DNA from: Gemmatimonadota bacterium
Lineage (GTDB): Bacteria; Gemmatimonadota; Gemmatimonadetes; Gemmatimonadales; Gemmatimonadaceae
Direction of reading: 5' to 3'
Assembly: GCA_028287305.1 (NCBI GenBank)
Contig: JAQBPX010000002.1
Coordinates: 62,001 to 126,000, forward strand
Length of the DNA: 64,000 nt
Part shown: piece by piece, positions 2,583 to 11,336 of the stretch
Layout: the number at the start of each line of letters is the position of its first letter
How positions within the stretch are numbered: position 1 is the stretch's first letter
The notes under the pieces: generated by a model
Told to the model about the DNA's origin: nothing
The model's database searches: none
Seen by the model: only the letters and a program-made list of their open reading frames with translations
Program-made: the position numbers and the translations under genes

Positions 2583-3908
2583 TCACTTCGACCCATTCAG
2601 CAGCGGATTATTCTGCTTCTCCACGTCCGGCAGCGGCAGGCAAAGCGCCGATCCATACTGCCCGCCGCCGTAGAACGTCGTTCCGCTCGCAGGCGCTGGC
2701 GTGATCTGATAGCGGATCAGGTCTCCGAGGTGCTGGCTCTCGAGGTAGAGCTCGCGGCGACGCTGGTCGATCAGCGCGCTCCTGAGCTCCGCAGCGGTGG
2801 GCGCCACGAGCGGCGCCTGGTTGCCGCGCGCGCGATAGGTGTTGATGATGTTCGTCGCGTTGCCCGCGTTCGCCGCCAAGTCCGCCTCGGCGATGATGAG
2901 CTGCGCCTCGTCGTAACTCGCGATGCGCGTGGACGACGCCTGCGACGTGAACTTGCCCTGCAGGTAGATGGGCAGCCCGTAGACCGAGTTGCGCTTCTGG
3001 TCGAGGGCGGGCACGCGCGGGTCGTTGAGCGCGCGATACGACGCGGGCACCCCGGCCAACACGTTGGTGCCACCGGAGAACCCGTACTGGCGATTGGTGC
3101 GACGATCGCTGGGGTCGCCGGCGCTCGACGTCGCCATGAAGGTGAAGCCCGTTGGCACGAGCACCGCGTCGGCACGCGCACCGGCCAGGTTGCCCAGGTC
3201 GAGCCGGGTGCGGGCGCGCCCCACGTACGCCAGGTTGAGAACGCTCGCGCCCGCAGCGCCCGCCGCCTGCGCCTCGGTGATCGCTCGCGTGAACGTGGCC
3301 TCCGCAATGGCGAGTGCCTGCGCGCGCGTCATCTCGGTGCCCCAGGCGATCTGCCCCGCCGCGTCGTACACGGAGAAGACGATCGAGCAGAAGCCCTCCG
3401 ACAGCAGGAGCTGCGAGTAGGCCTCGTACGCGCTCGACGTCGCAAGGATCACCGCGCGGTTCGGAACGTCGGCGTCCGACGCGCCTGCCACGATGCGGTG
3501 GAGGTTGTTGGCGGAGACGCGCGACGCCTGGAGCGGCGTGTACGCGCCCGCGCCGCCACAGCTGCTGGTGCTGTAGCGCGAGTCCTTCGACTGGAAGGTG
3601 CGCTGGTCGTAGATGAAGAGGTCGGCGGTCTGGGTGTAGTTCTCCAGCTCCTCGCCGATCAGTCCTCCGAGCACGGCGTAGCCGCCGAAGGCGCATTCGA
3701 AGTCCGCCTGCGCGCCATTGAGGAGCAGCTGCGCGTTCGCGGCTGACTCGAGTGGGCCGGCGGGAATGCGGCTCGGCGCGTCGACGCTGAGCAGGTCGGA
3801 GGTGGAGCACGCCGCCAGCATGCCGACGAGCGCCGCCCCGGCGCCTGCAAGCACTGCCGCACGTCGTGTCCAGCGCGCCGCCCGTTCACGGGATGAAGTC
3901 ACGTTCAT
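2583..3908 (-). CDS. SusD/RagB-family outer-membrane nutrient-binding lipoprotein
   Basis: 441-aa protein. The start at 3908 is chosen for its Shine-Dalgarno-like AGGTGA just upstream and because it precedes a signal peptide ending in the lipobox GMLAAC. The reading frame stays open upstream to 4766, but that stretch lies inside the SusC gene. The family (SusD/RagB, helical TPR-like) binds oligosaccharides or peptides on the outer membrane and passes them to its SusC partner. Supporting features are the C-terminal DQRRRELYLESQHLGDLIR segment, characteristic of SusD C-termini, and co-transcription 50 nt downstream of a SusC gene. The substrate cannot be read from sequence. Confidence 0.9.
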   Translation of the reverse strand: MNVTSSRERAARWTRRAAVLAGAGAALVGMLAACSTSDLLSVDAPSRIPAGPLESAANAQLLLNGAQADFECAFGGYAVLGGLIGEELENYTQTADLFIYDQRTFQSKDSRYSTSSCGGAGAYTPLQASRVSANNLHRIVAGASDADVPNRAVILATSSAYEAYSQLLLSEGFCSIVFSVYDAAGQIAWGTEMTRAQALAIAEATFTRAITEAQAAGAAGASVLNLAYVGRARTRLDLGNLAGARADAVLVPTGFTFMATSSAGDPSDRRTNRQYGFSGGTNVLAGVPASYRALNDPRVPALDQKRNSVYGLPIYLQGKFTSQASSTRIASYDEAQLIIAEADLAANAGNATNIINTYRARGNQAPLVAPTAAELRSALIDQRRRELYLESQHLGDLIRYQITPAPASGTTFYGGGQYGSALCLPLPDVEKQNNPLLNGSK

Positions 3909-3958
3909 TCGTGTCACCTGTATGTGGGCGCGATCCGCCGTGGCGAATCGCGCGAGCA

Positions 3959-6952
3959 TTAGAAGGTCAGGCGGAGGGTCGCGAGGAACTGCTGGGACTG
4001 CGGGAGCACCGTCTGCTCCCACGAGGTATTGCCGCCGCGGCTGCCGGAGAAGAAGGTGCCTTCCGGGTCCGTGCCGGTGTACTTCGTCCAGGTCTTCAGG
4101 TTGCGACCCGAGATCGCGATCTCGGCGCGCTGCGCGCGGGCAAAGCGCTGCACGAGCTGGTCGGGAATCGAGTACGATGCCGAGAGCTCGCGGATGCGCG
4201 CGAAGTTGGCCTTGGTGATGAGGAAGTCGAGGTAGGTGCGGCTCGAGTAGATCTCGGCGATGCGCACCGCGTCGTTCTGGAAGTTCTGCGGGGCGAAGTT
4301 CTCCTCGCAGCGGCTGTTCACCGTGCAGCGCACGCGCGTGTTGCCGTCGAGCTTCTTGTGGCCGTTCTTGAAGTCGAGCATGCCGTACACGTGGAAGCGC
4401 TGGAACGCGGTGACCGTGGTGGAGAACGATCCCTCGACCGGCGGCACCGAACGGCCGAGATAGACCATCGGGGCCGAGGCGCAGGGAACGGCCGCGCCGC
4501 CCTCCTTGCCACCGGAGCCGGGGATCGTGTCGGCGCACATCAGGTTGCTCGTCTTGCCGGCGGCGTCGATCGACGCGCTCAACACGCGACGCTCGAACCA
4601 TGCGCCCACCGGGAAGCCCACCTGGTGACGGACGAAGCTGCCGCCTGACACGAAGGACTGGCCGCCCAGGTCGAGCACCTTGTTGTCGTTCGTGGCGAAG
4701 CTGAACGACATGTCGATGCCGAGCTTGTCGCCGCGGTAGGGGGTGCCGCGAACCAGCGTCTCCCATCCCCAGTTGCGGACGGAGCCGGCGTTGAACGGCT
4801 GCGTGCCGGCGAAGCCGATCGAGGGACCGACCTGCCGGTTGAGGATCGCGTCGGCGGTCTTCTTGTTGTAGTACGTGACCTCGATGCCGATGCGGTCATT
4901 GAGCGCGGCCGCGTCGAAGCCGGCCTCGATCTCCTTGCCACGCTCCGGGCCCAGGTCGGGGTTGCCGATCTCGAGGGGGCGCACCGCGGGCGTGCCGTTG
5001 GGGCCCACCGCGGAGGTGTACGTGCGCAGCGACGCATACGTCGCCGGCTGCTTGCCCGCCTCGCCGTACGCGCTGCGCAGGCGCAGGCTGCTGAGGTGGT
5101 TGAGCATGCCGTTGCCCTTGAAGAAGTCCTCGTCGCTGATGACCCAGCTCACGCTGAACTTCGGGAAGAGCGCGTTCTTGAAGTTCTTGCCGAAGGCGCT
5201 GTGCTGGTCGGAGCGCACGGCGGCGGTGAGGAACAACCGGTCGCGCCAGGCGACCTGCTCCTGCCCGTACACACCGAGCGACGCGTCCTCGCTGAACGAC
5301 TCGGCCGTGCTGAAGTTCTGCGTGGCCGCCGACACCGAGGAGAGCCCGGGCGTGGGGAACACGGAACCGAACGACTCGAGGGAGTGGAAGCTCTGGCGGT
5401 AGTACTGTCCACCCACCGACGTCGTGGTGTGGATGGAGGGCGAGTAGTTCCACATCGCGTTCGCCGCGTAGTCGGCGGTGCGGTAGCGCGTCTGTCCATC
5501 CACCACGTCCGAGGCGCCGAGCGCGTCGGAGCCGAAGCTCGGGTGCGCCACGAGCGAGTCGATGCGCGGCTGGTAGACGTGGTCCTGCGTGTTGGTGAGG
5601 TCGGCGCCGACGGTGAGGCGCTGCGTGAACCATGACACCGGCGTATGGTCGAAGCGTAGGCTGCCGGTGAAGCGGTCGAGGTCCTGCCACATGCGATAGA
5701 GGTCGTCGTACTCACTCGGCAGTCCCGAGTGATAGCACTGCTTGTAGCGGTCGGTGCAGTTCTGCGGCGCCATGGAATAGATGGTCCACACGCGACCGCC
5801 GAATCCGCCCTCGGCGGGAATGCGGGTGGGGCCGGAAACGACGCCGGTGCTGAGCGAGATCTTCATCGAGGGCATCGGCGTGAGGCCCGCGTTGAAGCGA
5901 CCGCTGTAGTGATGCATGTTGTTCGACGGCTCGGGGCCGCCGGCATCCTGATAGTTGCCGCTGAGGTAGTAGTCGAGCGCCGAGACGCCGCCGTTCACCG
6001 CGACCTCGAGCTCCTGCTGGCGCCCGGTGCGGAACTGCTTGCCGTGGCGCGCCTCGATGTCATCGTAGGTGATCTTCGTGAGCGTGCTGCCCACCATGCC
6101 GAAGTTGTCGGGGAAATACTGTCCCGGGTTCGACAGGTAGTTACCGCCCTGCCGCAGCGTCATGTTCCAGCGCGCGGCGCCATTGCGTCCCTTCTTCGTG
6201 ATGATCTGGATCACGCCGTTCGAGGCCTCGGTGCCGTAGAGCGTGGCGGCCGAGGGACCCTTGAGGATCTCGACGCTCTCGATGTCGTCGGGATTGAGGT
6301 CGTTGAGGCGCGAGATCACGCCACCGCCGAACGACGATTGCACCGCGGGACCGGAGCCCTGCGCGTTGGTGACGCGCACGCCGTCCACGTAGAGCAGCGG
6401 CTCGGCGGAGAGCGAGAGGCTCGAGATGCCGCGAATGCGGATCTTGGCGCCCGAGCCGATCTGCCCGGTGCCGGGGATGATGACGACGCCCGCGGCGCGC
6501 CCGTTGATCAGGCTGGTGACCGAGGGAATCGGCGCCTGGGCCACCACGTCGGCGGCGTTGATCTGCGACACCGTGTTGCCGAGCTCGCGGCGCGTCTGCG
6601 CGCCGGCGGTGCCGGTGACGACGACCGCCTCGAGGCTGGCGGGATTCGTGATCATCGAGACGCGCACGTTCTCATCGCCCACTCGCGCCGTGGCACGCGC
6701 GGCTCGAAAGCCGATGCGTCGCACGTCGATGGTCACCGACGATCCGGAGAGTCCCGTGAACCTGAAGTGTCCCTTGTCGTCGGACACCGTTCGCTGGCTG
6801 CTGCCGACGATGGTGATCTGTGCGGCGGCGATCGGGTCCTGCGACCCGAGTCCGGTGATGGTGCCGGCGACCGACCCGCCCTGCGCCGCCAGCGAAGCTG
6901 GCAATGCGAGGATGGCGATGGTCGCGCGGAGGAGAGATGACAAGCGTGTCAT
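3959..6952 (-). CDS. SusC/RagA-family TonB-dependent outer-membrane transporter
   Basis: 997 aa. The start at 6952 is chosen because it opens a clean signal peptide ending SLAAQ. Residues about 27-110 form a carboxypeptidase-regulatory-like beta-sandwich. A TonB plug follows with the SusC hallmarks INGRAAGV and VDGVRV, and EILKGPSAATLYGTEASNG at its end. The rest is a beta barrel ending in an aromatic-terminated strand (LRLTF). With the SusD-like lipoprotein downstream it should form a pedal-bin importer for a polymer-derived ligand, driven by TonB. It is divergent from an ECF sigma operon, which in Bacteroidota is a usual arrangement for regulated SusCD loci. Confidence 0.93.
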   Translation of the reverse strand: MTRLSSLLRATIAILALPASLAAQGGSVAGTITGLGSQDPIAAAQITIVGSSQRTVSDDKGHFRFTGLSGSSVTIDVRRIGFRAARATARVGDENVRVSMITNPASLEAVVVTGTAGAQTRRELGNTVSQINAADVVAQAPIPSVTSLINGRAAGVVIIPGTGQIGSGAKIRIRGISSLSLSAEPLLYVDGVRVTNAQGSGPAVQSSFGGGVISRLNDLNPDDIESVEILKGPSAATLYGTEASNGVIQIITKKGRNGAARWNMTLRQGGNYLSNPGQYFPDNFGMVGSTLTKITYDDIEARHGKQFRTGRQQELEVAVNGGVSALDYYLSGNYQDAGGPEPSNNMHHYSGRFNAGLTPMPSMKISLSTGVVSGPTRIPAEGGFGGRVWTIYSMAPQNCTDRYKQCYHSGLPSEYDDLYRMWQDLDRFTGSLRFDHTPVSWFTQRLTVGADLTNTQDHVYQPRIDSLVAHPSFGSDALGASDVVDGQTRYRTADYAANAMWNYSPSIHTTTSVGGQYYRQSFHSLESFGSVFPTPGLSSVSAATQNFSTAESFSEDASLGVYGQEQVAWRDRLFLTAAVRSDQHSAFGKNFKNALFPKFSVSWVISDEDFFKGNGMLNHLSSLRLRSAYGEAGKQPATYASLRTYTSAVGPNGTPAVRPLEIGNPDLGPERGKEIEAGFDAAALNDRIGIEVTYYNKKTADAILNRQVGPSIGFAGTQPFNAGSVRNWGWETLVRGTPYRGDKLGIDMSFSFATNDNKVLDLGGQSFVSGGSFVRHQVGFPVGAWFERRVLSASIDAAGKTSNLMCADTIPGSGGKEGGAAVPCASAPMVYLGRSVPPVEGSFSTTVTAFQRFHVYGMLDFKNGHKKLDGNTRVRCTVNSRCEENFAPQNFQNDAVRIAEIYSSRTYLDFLITKANFARIRELSASYSIPDQLVQRFARAQRAEIAISGRNLKTWTKYTGTDPEGTFFSGSRGGNTSWEQTVLPQSQQFLATLRLTF

Positions 6953-7049
6953 GGGGGCCCTTGGGAGAAGGGAATGGGGAATGGCGCTACCATATTGCGC
7001 CCCTGATGAGGCGGCAAGAGGGGATTGGAGATAGAATGGAGATTCGCGG
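6953..7049. promoter_or_regulatory. Divergent promoter region between susC-like and ECF sigma genes
   Basis: 97-bp spacer. On the minus strand TATGGT (6994-6989) fits a TANNNT -10 with a leader of about 36 nt to the SusC start. On the plus strand TAGAAT (7032-7037) fits a -10, and GGAG (7038-7041) lies 8 nt before the GTG at 7050. Only one of these last two can be functional for that start. A small inverted repeat (GGCGC at 6983-6987, GCGCC at 6997-7001) flanks the SusC -10 and could be an operator. Confidence 0.4.
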
Positions 7050-7694
7050 GTGACCGGGACCGGGGGGCGCTGGTTACGCCTTCTGGAGCCGTTCACCGAG
7101 GAATCCCTGTCCACTCGTCCGCTGCGCACCACGCCCGTTCCCGCCGCGCCGATGGTGACGTCGTCGCAGGTCGCCCGCGCGAAGCTGGGCGACGCCGAGG
7201 CGTTCGCCCAGATCGTGCGCGCGTACCACGCGCGTTGCGTGCGCTTCGCGCGCGGAATGCTGCGCGACCAGGGCGCGGCGGAGGATGCGGTGCAGGAAGC
7301 GTTCGTGCGGATGTATCGCGCGCTGCCGCGCTACGAAGAGCGCGACCGGTTCGACTACTGGCTGTTCCGCATCCTCGCGAACTGCTGTCGCACCGCGAAC
7401 GCCTCGCTCGAGCGGCGCGGGGAGCAACAGCTCTTCGACGAGGAGTGGGACCGCATCGAGCGGCCCGGCGCACTCGACCTCGTGGCGCGCCTCGAATCGT
7501 CGGACGCCATTCGCCGTGCGGTGGCCGAGCTGCCCGAACATCAACGCGAGATCTTCCTGTTGTTTCACGTCGAGGGCTTTTCCTACGAAGAGATGGAGCG
7601 CATGACGGGCATCGGGCGCTCGGCGCTCAAGATGCGCGTCAAGCGCGCCTGCGACATCCTGCGCGAGCGACTGGAGGGACTGCTCCATGGCTGA
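7050..7694 (+). CDS. ECF-type RNA polymerase sigma factor
   Basis: 214 aa from GTG, with GGAG 8 nt upstream; an ATG at 7152 is an alternative start giving 180 aa. Region 2 carries the sigma-70 r2 signature (FARGMLRDQGAAEDAVQEAFVRMYRA type), and region 4 has an HTH with ELPEHQREIFLLFHVEGFSYEEMERMTG. It should direct core polymerase to a specific promoter set, released by an anti-sigma factor. The next gene overlaps by 8 nt and encodes a single-pass membrane protein, which is therefore the natural anti-sigma candidate. Confidence 0.92.
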   Translation: MTGTGGRWLRLLEPFTEESLSTRPLRTTPVPAAPMVTSSQVARAKLGDAEAFAQIVRAYHARCVRFARGMLRDQGAAEDAVQEAFVRMYRALPRYEERDRFDYWLFRILANCCRTANASLERRGEQQLFDEEWDRIERPGALDLVARLESSDAIRRAVAELPEHQREIFLLFHVEGFSYEEMERMTGIGRSALKMRVKRACDILRERLEGLLHG

Positions 7695-8355
7695 GCGCGC
7701 GGAGCGAGACCCGGTGATCGAGCGCGTGGTGCACGAGATGCGGGCCACGTCGCCGTCGAGCGACGCGACCATCGCGCGCGTGGTGGCGGCCGCCGTGCAG
7801 GCGCGCGAGATGGGCGTGCTCGAGGAAGCCGAGGATGTGCCCGTACGGGTGCGCACGCCGCGACGGCTGGTGCGCTGGCGCGTGGCGGGATGGATCGCCG
7901 CGGCTGCCTCGCTGACCGGCTTCGCAGTGGGCGCGTCGATCACGGCGTGGCGCGATCGCGCGGTGCGCGTGGTGGCGCCCGTGGAAGGTCAGTCCGTCGC
8001 GGTCGCGAGCATGGCTGCGCCAACAGGCGCGCCAACAGGCGCGCCGAGTGCGGCGCTCGCGAGCAATTCCGCCGCTGAGGACGCACGCGTGGTCACGCAG
8101 TTCGTGCTCGCGCGCCCAGGCGCGGCGTCGGTGGCGCTCGTGGGCGACTTCAATGCGTGGGACAAGGCTGCCACCCCGCTCGCGCAGGAGCCGGGCAGCG
8201 GCGTGTGGTCGGTGGCACTGCCGCTCGTGCCGGGTCGTCACGTCTACGCGTTCCTGGTGAACGGCGCGGAGTGGGTTGTCGACCCGCGCGCCCCCAAGGC
8301 GAATGATCCCGACTTCGGCGTCGCCGGATCGGCCGTGGTCGTGGGGCGCCCGTGA
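7687..8355 (+). CDS. Membrane-anchored putative anti-sigma protein with CBM48/AMPK-like module
   Basis: 222 aa. Residues 1-60 are charged and cytoplasmic, with no zinc-binding HxxxCxxC motif. One membrane segment spans about 66-86. A low-complexity linker follows (GAPTGAPTGAPS, from a 12-bp tandem repeat). Residues about 136-222 match the glycogen-binding/isoamylase-N beta-sandwich: VALVGDFNAWD, a central Trp, and VYAFLVNGAEWVVDP. The start overlaps the sigma gene, so translation is coupled. The anti-sigma role is inferred from position and topology; the carbohydrate-binding fold is recognised from motif pattern. The predicted sensing side is the periplasm. Confidence 0.7.
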   Translation: MAERAERDPVIERVVHEMRATSPSSDATIARVVAAAVQAREMGVLEEAEDVPVRVRTPRRLVRWRVAGWIAAAASLTGFAVGASITAWRDRAVRVVAPVEGQSVAVASMAAPTGAPTGAPSAALASNSAAEDARVVTQFVLARPGAASVALVGDFNAWDKAATPLAQEPGSGVWSVALPLVPGRHVYAFLVNGAEWVVDPRAPKANDPDFGVAGSAVVVGRP

Positions 8356-8996
8356 AGTACGCCGCACTGTTCGTCGTGCTCGGTGCCGGCGCGCTCGGTG
8401 CGCAGGACGCGCGGCTCGCGCGGCGGCTGGACGCGCCCACGCAGGCAGCGGTCCTGAAACTGATCGACGTCGCGCGCTCGCGCGGCCTGCCCACCGAGCC
8501 GCTGGTGGAGAAGGCGCTCGAGGGCGCCACGAAGCGCGCGCCGCGCGAGGCGATCGAGCGTGCGCTCACTCGCCGCATGGATCGACTGCAGCTGTCGCGC
8601 GAGACACTGGGTGCCGCCTCGAGCGATGCCGACGTCGCCGCCGGGGCGACCGCGCTCGAGGTCGGGGTGCCGACGGATGCGATTCGCGACCTGCGCGCCA
8701 TTCGTCCCACGCGATCCGTGGCCGTTCCGCTCGCGGTGCTGGCCGAGCTGGTCGCGCACGGCGTGCCGGTGGCGAAGGCGTCGCAGATGGTGGCGGTGCT
8801 CATGCGGCGCGGCGTATCGGAAGGGCAGCTGGTGGCGCTGGGACGGGACGTACAGGGTGACATCGCGACGGGTGCGTCGCCGGAAGCGTCGCTCGACGTG
8901 CGCACGCGCTACCTGGTGGCCATGCTGCCCGTGCCCGGCGCCAACAACGGCCTGGTGAACTCGGCGATCCCCTCGGACCTGCCTCGCAAACCGTAG
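8352..8996 (+). CDS. Secreted helical protein of unknown function (ECF/CBM48 operon)
   Basis: 214 aa from a GTG that overlaps the previous stop (GTGA). A short signal peptide ends ALGAQ. The mature part is almost entirely predicted helix, rich in Ala, Arg and Leu, with repeated segments of the form VGVPTDAIRDL, AHGVPVAKASQMV and RRGVSEGQLVAL. These suggest short helical-hairpin repeats. No known domain is recognised. Tight coupling to the sigma/anti-sigma genes suggests a periplasmic component of the same pathway. Confidence 0.65.
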   Translation: MKYAALFVVLGAGALGAQDARLARRLDAPTQAAVLKLIDVARSRGLPTEPLVEKALEGATKRAPREAIERALTRRMDRLQLSRETLGAASSDADVAAGATALEVGVPTDAIRDLRAIRPTRSVAVPLAVLAELVAHGVPVAKASQMVAVLMRRGVSEGQLVALGRDVQGDIATGASPEASLDVRTRYLVAMLPVPGANNGLVNSAIPSDLPRKP

Positions 8997-9018
8997 CCCG
9001 CGTTCCTACGTTGAGGGC

Positions 9019-10086
9019 GTGCGATCCCGCCTCGCCCTGCTAACGCTGGCCATCCCGACGTCGCTCGCCGCCCAGCTGGACGTGCGCCTCGACGCCGGCG
9101 CCGCGCGCCTCTCGCAGCGCTCGCTGCCGGTGCGCAGCGCGATGACCTCGGCGCTCACGGTGCAGGATGCCGGGCGGGCGTGGTCGGTGTGGAGCTCGGC
9201 GCTCGCTGCGCGTTCCGACAGCGACGCCACCGCGCAGGGCGTGGGCGTCGCCACGGTGTTCATGCCGGTCGGAAATCGCCTGCGGATCGAAGGGGGCGTG
9301 GTGGGCGCCGCATTCGGTGCGTCGCGCGCGCTCCCCGTCACCGCGGCCAGTGGCACCGCGCGCGGACAGCTGCTCGCGGGCAACGCGTGGATCGAGGCCG
9401 GCGGATCGAGAGGCCGCGTGTGGCGCATGGGATCGAGCGCACCCCTCACCACCATCTCGGCCGGCGCGGGCTGGCGGCGGGACGCGCTCACGCTCGCTGC
9501 CGGCGCGAGTGCGGTGCGCGCAGATACCCGCTACCGCGACGCATCCCTCATCGCGCGCCTCTCGCGTGCGCGGTGGGAGCTCGGCGCCGCCGCCGGCGCG
9601 CGACACACGAGCGATGTTTCGCCGGGCGATGCCACATGGGGCGAAGTGGATGCGGCCTGGTGGCTGTCGCCACGCGTGGCGCTGGCGGCCAGCGGCGGGC
9701 GCGCCCTGGAGGATGCGACGCGAGGCGTGCCCTCCACGAGATACGCCACCGTTGCAGTGCGCGTGGCGCTGCGGTCGCGAGCCTGGTCACATGCGGCCAC
9801 GCGCGAGCGGCCTGCGCTCTCGATCGAAATGCACGGCGAGCAGCAACTCCTCACCGTGAGCGCCGCGGGCGCGCAGCGCGTGGAGTTGATGGCGGACTTC
9901 ACGGGATGGGAGCCCGTGGAGCTCACGCAAACCGGCGCGTCGTTCAGCATGACGCTCGCTCGAGTAGCCGCCGGATCGCACCACGTGGCCATTCGCGTGG
10001 ACGGCGGCGCGTGGCTGGTGCCCGCCAACCTCTCACCAGCCGATGACGACTTCGGTGGCCGCGTGGGACTGCTGTCGGTGCCGTAG
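9019..10086 (+). CDS. Outer-membrane barrel-like protein with C-terminal CBM48-like module
   Basis: 355 aa from GTG, with a signal peptide ending SLAAQ. Residues about 20-260 show alternating small and aromatic residues in short strands, with repeated Gly-Ala-rich turns, resembling an outer-membrane beta barrel. Residues about 275-355 form a second glycogen-binding-like sandwich (RVELMADFTGWEPVEL, GSHHVAIRVDGGAW) related in pattern to the end of the membrane protein at 7687-8355. It lies 22 nt after the preceding gene and closes the operon. No ribosome-binding site at proper spacing is visible, so translation may depend on coupling. Confidence 0.6.
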   Translation: MRSRLALLTLAIPTSLAAQLDVRLDAGAARLSQRSLPVRSAMTSALTVQDAGRAWSVWSSALAARSDSDATAQGVGVATVFMPVGNRLRIEGGVVGAAFGASRALPVTAASGTARGQLLAGNAWIEAGGSRGRVWRMGSSAPLTTISAGAGWRRDALTLAAGASAVRADTRYRDASLIARLSRARWELGAAAGARHTSDVSPGDATWGEVDAAWWLSPRVALAASGGRALEDATRGVPSTRYATVAVRVALRSRAWSHAATRERPALSIEMHGEQQLLTVSAAGAQRVELMADFTGWEPVELTQTGASFSMTLARVAAGSHHVAIRVDGGAWLVPANLSPADDDFGGRVGLLSVP

Positions 10087-10097
10087 TCGCCGCGCGT

Positions 10098-11336
10098 TCA
10101 GGGAATGGAGCCGATCCTTCCAATGAACAGGATCGTGCCCGAGAGCCGCTCGCGAATCACGAGCACGAATGGCCGGTCCACGGTCACGTCCACGAACTGT
10201 GGCGCCGACGTGAGCACCACCGTCACGCTCGTCGCTGCGGCAGCCTCGGTGCCTTCCTCGTCCACCTGCACGAAGGTCTTCTGCTTCACCGAGGAGATCT
10301 GCACGGGCACCGAGGGCGACATGCGGCTGAAGTCCGCCGCATCGCTGAACGCGACGCCCATTCCGAGCGCGGTGAGGTCCGGCCCCAGCTCACGCTCCCA
10401 CTCGAGCCGCAGCTTCGGCAGCGAAAGCGACACTGCCCGCTCGCGCATGGCGCCAACGATCGCGGCGAATGCGGGCGCGTCGAGCGAGGCCACGAGCGCA
10501 TTCGCCGTGGTGCCGGCCTTCGGCAGGAGCACGGTCATGTTCCAGGCCGCGTTCCCGTATGGCAGTTCCACGGCCTGCCACGTGGAACCCTCGGCGTAGC
10601 TCACCTGCCCGCTGCGATGCATCATGCGCACCTGCAACGCGCCTGACTGCGTGGTGAACGGTGCGTCGGTGGTGCGGCTCACGTCGAACTTGTCGCGCCA
10701 GCTTCCCTTGAAGTAGAGCGCATTGATGAGGAACATCACCGCATCCCCGGGAATGGATTCCACGATGGTCGGGATCTTCCCGTTCGTCGCGGTGCTCACC
10801 CATCCGTTGATCGTGGGCACGGCCTGCGCGCTGCCGAAGTCCAGCGCCTTCGCCTCGGCGCCGAACCAGCGCTTGTCCTCGTCGATGAACGCCTGGCTGA
10901 AGGGAAACTGCTGGCGCCACCAGATGGAGTTTGCCACGCGCACGTCGGTGGACGGGTCGAGCGACGTGAGCAGCGCGGTGAGCGTGCTCCAGCTCTCGCC
11001 GATCGCCTGGCGGTCCATGGTGGCGGGAAACTCGAGCGACGCGCGCATCGCGCTGAAGGTGCTGCCGTTCGCGCCGTTCATCGCCATGCCGAGCGCGTAG
11101 CTGGCGCTGAGGGGAGACGCGAAGGCGTTGTCCGCGGGCGCGGTGGTCACCACCTGCCGGAACAGCGAGAAGGTGAAGGCGTTCGCGCTCGAAACGGTGC
11201 TCGCCTCGCCCGCCGAGAGGGCACGCGGGAGGGTGGTGAGGGCCGTCGGCTGCCCACCCTTGGGGGACACGCCGGTGGTGCTGGAGCAGGCGCCCCCGAG
11301 CAGCATGCTGGCGAGCGCGAGCGTACGCAGGGACAT
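10098..11336 (-). CDS. Serpin-family protease inhibitor, lipoprotein
   Basis: 412 aa. The signal peptide has lipobox LLGGAC. The full serpin fold is recognisable: the breach/shutter segments FLINALYFKGSW and VELPYG, the hinge of the reactive centre loop EEGTEAAAAT (small residues that permit loop insertion, i.e. inhibitory type), and the C-terminal DRPFVLVIRERLSGTILFIGRI. The scissile bond lies near LTSA, about 15 residues after the hinge Gly, which would favour elastase-like or subtilisin-like targets; P1 cannot be fixed by eye. It probably protects the outer membrane or periplasm from proteases. Confidence 0.92.
   Translation of the reverse strand: MSLRTLALASMLLGGACSSTTGVSPKGGQPTALTTLPRALSAGEASTVSSANAFTFSLFRQVVTTAPADNAFASPLSASYALGMAMNGANGSTFSAMRASLEFPATMDRQAIGESWSTLTALLTSLDPSTDVRVANSIWWRQQFPFSQAFIDEDKRWFGAEAKALDFGSAQAVPTINGWVSTATNGKIPTIVESIPGDAVMFLINALYFKGSWRDKFDVSRTTDAPFTTQSGALQVRMMHRSGQVSYAEGSTWQAVELPYGNAAWNMTVLLPKAGTTANALVASLDAPAFAAIVGAMRERAVSLSLPKLRLEWERELGPDLTALGMGVAFSDAADFSRMSPSVPVQISSVKQKTFVQVDEEGTEAAAATSVTVVLTSAPQFVDVTVDRPFVLVIRERLSGTILFIGRIGSIP

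Follow-up and report, generated by a model that had tools for sequence, protein, structure and literature searches.

The question raised by this locus is what an extracytoplasmic function (ECF) sigma factor does in the company of two proteins that each carry a glycogen-binding-like domain. The locus lies in a window of 64,000 nucleotides (contig JAQBPX010000002.1, positions 62,001 to 126,000) from the 4.37 Mb genome of a Gemmatimonadota bacterium; coordinates given without a locus or contig name are those of the window. A first-pass annotation, made from the sequence alone, had described here a sigma factor, a membrane protein with an external CBM48 domain, a helical protein and a barrel, divergent from a SusC/SusD importer, and all of these genes were recovered in our analysis. 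The four genes are the following.

7152-7694, + strand: ECF sigma factor with regions 2 and 4 (Sigma70_r2, 5.7e-16; Sigma70_r4_2, 2.8e-13; the exact base of the start codon is uncertain)
7687-8355, + strand: membrane protein, putative anti-sigma factor (CBM_48, PF02922, 1.4e-8; AMPK1_CBM, 4.3e-8)
8352-8996, + strand: HEL, a secreted all-helical protein and conserved member of the module
9019-10086, + strand: outer-membrane barrel of 355 amino acids with a C-terminal CBM48 domain (structure model, homologue profiles)

The sigma factor and membrane protein genes overlap by 8 bases (7687-7694). Together they make up a single copy of a gene-control module that has no prior description and is spread across the Gemmatimonadota. 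The probable role of the module is to detect either a sugar polymer or some state of the cell envelope and, in response, to turn on the genes of the channel.

Conservation and copy number of the module

Two further full four-gene copies are present in the same genome, on contigs C37 (L008) and C4 (L009), the barrel gene standing first in the latter. In 40 newly fetched loci the sigma factor and the membrane protein were found together in every case and all four genes in 36, so the neighbourhood is conserved. Other families of the phylum have the same neighbouring genes, sometimes in rotated order, and the sigma homologues of the paralogous and related loci are co-directional with them. The two paralogous copies and the recurrence through the phylum imply that the arrangement in the window is not due to chance. 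A profile of the membrane protein matched 269 of 395 Gemmatimonadota genomes (E up to 1e-6); since about 15 of these matches score so weakly that they could represent glycogen enzymes, approximately 250 genomes is the safer figure. At least one copy is thus carried by roughly two thirds of the sampled genomes, and many have two to five. In a tree of the sigma factors, the three copies of the present genome fall into separate clades that each include members from other genomes, which identifies them as old paralogues.

The only strongly recurrent neighbour family is that of the DUF4382 proteins, which was found in distant families (L063, L066, L067, L072, L155 and others) and also adjoins the module in a Chitinispirillaceae locus. 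Two other regions of the same genome were noted. In L010 (8634-10360) an orphan gene for a barrel with CBM48, with no sigma or anti-sigma gene alongside, precedes a gene whose secreted product retains some of the HEL motif. Distant from the three modules, L011 (contig C24:82000-101900) holds an extended cluster, all on one strand, of genes for alpha-glucan and trehalose enzymes, named here from their sequences, with three CBM_48 matches.

Relationship of the membrane protein to anti-sigma factors

The membrane protein is predicted to consist of a cytoplasmic N-terminal domain (approximately residues 1-65), one membrane helix and a periplasmic CBM48 domain (residues 134-222). Judged by its sequence relatives, it is very probably an anti-sigma factor, because zf-HC2 and CBM48 are fused in some of these relatives and because RsiW and RseA are the top PDB matches for the N-termini of distant members of its family. 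The fusions came to light in a genome-collection scan with a seven-row alignment, which detected relatives in metagenome-assembled genomes labelled as other phyla. Two of these, labelled Desantisbacteria and Clostridia, combine zf-HC2 and CBM48 in one sigma-adjacent protein, both domains scoring above the Pfam cut-offs, and a third, from the Chitinispirillaceae, has an HxxxCxxC motif. Phylum labels of such genomes can be wrong, but the fusion is independent of them. The zinc motif in these outgroup relatives suggests that in the Gemmatimonadota the zinc was lost and the domain became shorter. Distant members within the phylum begin with MxxELxxYLDGELxxxxLxxE...APxxLExRVMA, and their N-terminal profile retrieved RsiW (E = 0.0036) and RseA (E = 0.0078) from the PDB, with no further match below E = 1. 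The NCBIfam 'antisigma' model matched 20 of 58 homologues of the membrane protein; for the N-terminus of the window protein, Pfam and NCBIfam gave no significant match. With respect to the class I (ASDI) anti-sigma factors, the gene has the expected adjacency, overlapping the sigma gene here and being paired with one in all 40 new loci, and N-terminal relatedness exists at the family level, via the distant members and the two out-of-phylum relatives.

A FecR-type anti-sigma factor was rejected: at E up to 1, CBM families and a disorder repeat are the sole matches of the window protein, and FecR is absent from the top 25 families listed in the Pfam scan of the 58 homologues. The proposal of a non-FecR anti-sigma factor with an external CBM48 domain is therefore borne out by the zf-HC2 relatives, the RsiW and RseA profile matches and the fold described below. 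CBM48 is best known from glycogen enzymes, and the protein could accordingly be pictured as a scaffold of glycogen metabolism that merely adjoins a sigma gene. We consider this highly improbable in view of the invariable presence of the sigma factor in the new loci, the same zf-HC2 relatives and profile matches, and the lack of a catalytic domain.

Two CBM48 domains and a porin-like barrel

The CBM48 domain of the membrane protein scored 35.4 bits with PF02922 (cut-off 22.4), and all 58 homologues matched both CBM_48 and AMPK1_CBM. Its model (residues 134-222) has a predicted local distance difference test (pLDDT) value of approximately 97 and superimposes on the glycogen-binding domain of AMPK beta (1z0m) with a Z-score of 13.8 and a root-mean-square deviation of 1.4 over 80 residues. 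The C-terminal AMPK1_CBM match of the window barrel is weak when taken alone (0.0036, under the cut-off), and 42 of 43 barrel homologues match this family (E up to 1). In the model of the barrel protein (mean pLDDT 88.4), the 14 strands come first and a CBM48 sandwich then occupies residues ~266-355. Structure prediction thus returned the sandwich in both proteins, as the first-pass annotation had supposed.

The equivalent of AMPK W100, placed by alignment, is present in all of 95 membrane proteins and all of 88 domains of the barrel group, the latter a set that may include a few short membrane proteins; that of W133 is kept in 80% and 93%, respectively. In AMPK, glycogen binding is abolished by W100G and weakened by W133L (PMC6274970). 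Binding of a glucan by the two CBM48 domains is, from these sequence features, plausible.

The solved folds closest to the barrel are CymA (Z 19.7) and OmpG (Z ~18-19), and general porins are also among its Foldseek matches. CymA is a cyclodextrin channel (PMC8049027). The modelled barrel has an even number of strands. In an outer-membrane barrel of this kind both ends lie in the periplasm, so the CBM48 domain of the barrel is predicted to be periplasmic, facing that of the anti-sigma factor, and not exposed at the cell surface. Of the earlier suggestion that the barrel presents the same ligand at the outer membrane, the partnership stands, given the same type of domain and the same control, whereas display at the surface does not.

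HEL is conserved within the module, with GLPxxPLxxKxxEGxAKxxP as its core motif, and accompanies the sigma/anti-sigma pair outside the phylum too; the window protein has no Pfam family above cut-off. Directly before the sigma gene of the Chitinispirillaceae locus lies a possible outer-membrane barrel with neither CBM48 nor a Pfam match (L155:2821-3789, + strand), which may represent the ancestral partner.

A predicted promoter shared by the sigma and barrel genes

7049-7076, + strand: predicted self-activated ECF promoter, GGTGAC (7049-7054), 17 bases, GGTTA (7072-7076)

The sigma genes of the module are preceded by TGTGAC N15-18 GGGTTA or a close variant (KGTGAC, ~17 bases, GGTTA/GGGTA). Fourteen upstream regions, including some duplicate fetches of one locus, matched 12 of 12 motif positions, and shuffled sequences never exceeded 10. 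In a held-out set, 23 of 40 regions reached 10 or 11 of 11 positions, as compared to 7% of shuffles. The window copy scores 10 of 12, a value reached by 3.7% of shuffles; its GTGAC-N17-GGTT block occurs at the same place in three orthologues, the flanks of which have diverged. Where the barrel gene stands ahead of the sigma gene, the motif precedes the barrel gene in seven of seven cases (L009, L048 and, by eye, L053 in the first set; L097, L112, L117 and L121, four of four, in the held-out set). It is absent before the orphan barrel gene of L010 and before three barrel genes located 120-180 bases behind the operon. A strict form of the motif, searched in 128 genomes, gave ten sites and zero control matches; by their coordinates, all ten lie just before sigma genes of the module, in one clade. 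It is very likely, from these motif matches, that transcription of both the sigma operon and the barrel gene is directed by the sigma factor itself. The presence of the motif before sigma genes and before separately placed barrel genes makes the circuit look self-inducing.

A wider regulon was sought with a relaxed motif and rejected: it has four sites in the genome, about the number that we estimate from base composition, and two of them are not sigma promoters; the matches were treated as chance. One of these two, a TGTGAC-N17-GGGTTA sequence approximately 270 bases before a SusC-like gene on contig C20 (27930-27958, - strand; L085), could be due to chance.

The SusC/SusD genes and other neighbours

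3959-6952, - strand: SusC-like TonB-dependent receptor, divergent neighbour (TIGR04056, 411 bits)
2583-3821, - strand: SusD-like lipoprotein, neighbour (SusD_RagB, 3e-7)
6989-7017, - strand: SusC promoter, sigma70-like, predicted by eye (TTGCCG, 17 bases, TATGGT)

The SusD gene corresponds to 2583-3821, and a 727-residue open reading frame starting at 4766 is an over-extension. In Bacteroidota, FecI/FecR pairs control SusC/SusD importers, and the head-to-head arrangement in the window, together with a SusC/SusD pair near one of three orthologues of the window copy (L218, two genes between), could point to the same role for the present module. Homologues of both SusC and SusD were, however, found within the fetched stretch at no more than 2 of 44 loci, namely the window and L064. 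The SusC gene has a sigma70-like promoter of its own according to our prediction, the SusC strand of the sigma/SusC intergenic stretch showed no ECF motif, and FecR is missing from the listed families. Control of the importer by the module is consequently improbable, and the coupling proposed by the first-pass annotation was not supported. The importer is probably a neighbour and not a fixed part of the module; as such a part it was rejected on the locus counts, though in the window copy a link may exist.

On the other side of the operon, a serpin gene (PF00079, 3e-98; 10098-11336, - strand) converges on the barrel gene. In L219, an orthologue of the window copy, the same place is taken by a serpin-like gene (6623-7858, + strand; assigned by eye).

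What the module may sense

On balance, we favour the view that the four genes encode an autoregulated ECF sigma/anti-sigma signalling module with CBM48 as its input domain and an alpha-glucan-like compound as the most likely ligand. The N-terminal domain of the membrane protein would hold the sigma factor at the inner membrane at rest, and the periplasmic CBM48 domain of the same protein would serve as the input domain. The most likely input would be an alpha-glucan-like poly- or oligosaccharide entering the periplasm via the porin-like barrel, whose own CBM48 domain would hold this ligand or hand it over. Binding would then release the sigma factor, leading to transcription of its own operon and hence to more sensor, helical protein and channel. 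Here we infer the ligand, the direction in which the circuit responds and the part that HEL plays in it; for an alpha-glucan we rely on the equivalents of W100 and W133 kept in both domains and on CymA as the closest relative of the barrel.

Several points weigh against this view. Many glycan-binding folds are reused without a sugar, and a porin-like fold, itself modelled, is on its own no proof of sugar transport. No recurrent glucan enzyme was found among the neighbours of the module in the flank survey. The N-terminal domain of the window protein is short, being modelled at pLDDT 49-84 as two helices (residues 9-20 and 26-41) and a short third element, whereas class I anti-sigma domains have four; that this reduced domain binds the sigma factor we infer from the sequence relationships of its family. 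Finally, the equivalent of AMPK K126 is an alanine in the window copy and usually not a lysine in the homologues, and K126Q also abolishes glycogen binding in AMPK (PMC6274970). The domains may therefore recognise another ligand, or use this fold for contacts with proteins.

A rival explanation is a circuit for envelope integrity that involves no free sugar. In it the CBM48 domains of the two proteins would pair with one another in the periplasm, or attach to a single polysaccharide of the envelope, and the anti-sigma factor would read the correct placement of the barrel in the outer membrane much as RseA reads outer-membrane protein folding. Matching periplasmic domains on the inner and outer membranes, a strict promoter that marks sigma genes only, the missing glucan enzymes and the N-terminal relation to RseA all agree with such a circuit. 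Yet the pair of tryptophans that belongs to the glucan site in AMPK is retained by both domains, a constraint for which binding between proteins gives no reason, and we regard this explanation as rather unlikely.

The glucan-sensing view can be extended to a fuller picture, which we advance tentatively and rate somewhat below an even chance. Matched glucan-binding modules, one on the channel in the outer membrane and one on the anti-sigma factor in the inner membrane, would face each other in the periplasm, and the released sigma factor would make more of both. CBM48 would then for the first time be seen as the sensor of an ECF system, one that occurs phylum-wide, in several paralogous copies per genome that may read different glycans.

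Since about two thirds of the sampled genomes carry copies, this soil phylum, which is abundant but has received little study, probably relies on the module as one of its main routes of signalling. With the module, direct input of a sugar to an ECF sigma factor becomes open to testing, and the predicted promoter allows the sigma targets to be mapped. It would also mean that bacteria employ the fold with which AMPK reads glycogen for transcriptional control exerted from beyond the cytoplasm.

Comparison with known systems

The FecI/FecR-SusCD systems of Bacteroidota resemble the present locus in that an ECF sigma factor and an anti-sigma factor lie near a SusC/SusD pair, but differ in that no FecR match is among those listed here and SusC/SusD is not conserved with the module. 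The barrel shares its fold with the monomeric 14-strand porins CymA and OmpG (Z ~18-20 over ~220-235 residues) at 5-7% identity, and neither of these has a C-terminal CBM48 domain. With AMPK beta (1z0m/1z0n), the two domains have in common the CBM48 fold and the W100 and W133 equivalents; K126 is not kept, the sensor is extracytoplasmic and no kinase is involved.

According to a survey of class I anti-sigma factors, approximately 79% of Gemmatimonadetes ECF sigma factors are linked to them (PMC7406223). The zinc-containing members of this class (RsiW, RseA, zf-HC2; PMC7406223) have a profile-related N-terminus, the zinc motif also seen in our outgroup relatives, and a sensor placed after one membrane helix, whereas in the Gemmatimonadota module the zinc motif appears to be lost and the sensor is a CBM48 domain. 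The main text of that survey names no carbohydrate domain, and the words carbohydrate, glycogen and CBM are absent from it. In the literature we found no paper that describes the module or joins CBM48 or glycogen binding with an anti-sigma factor or with Gemmatimonadota, a weak negative since subscription journals were mostly outside the search.

The first-pass annotation had gone further, knowing of no described parallel, which is too strong a statement: the RsgI anti-sigma factors of Clostridium thermocellum, though from another sigma/anti-sigma family, carry carbohydrate-binding modules and sense polysaccharides (PMC4711584). As in the present case, SigI/RsgI form several paralogous pairs per genome and the sigma factor directs its own promoter (PMC4711584). 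No SigI/RsgI model was among the Pfam and NCBIfam matches listed, no direct comparison having been made. The clostridial sensors are CBM3, PA14 or GH10 domains on a Gram-positive surface, with cellulosome genes as targets, in contrast to the CBM48 domain in a Gram-negative periplasm described here. The sensing principle thus has a precedent in RsgI, and the combination of an ECF sigma factor with a class I type N-terminus, CBM48, a periplasmic location and a barrel partner is new.
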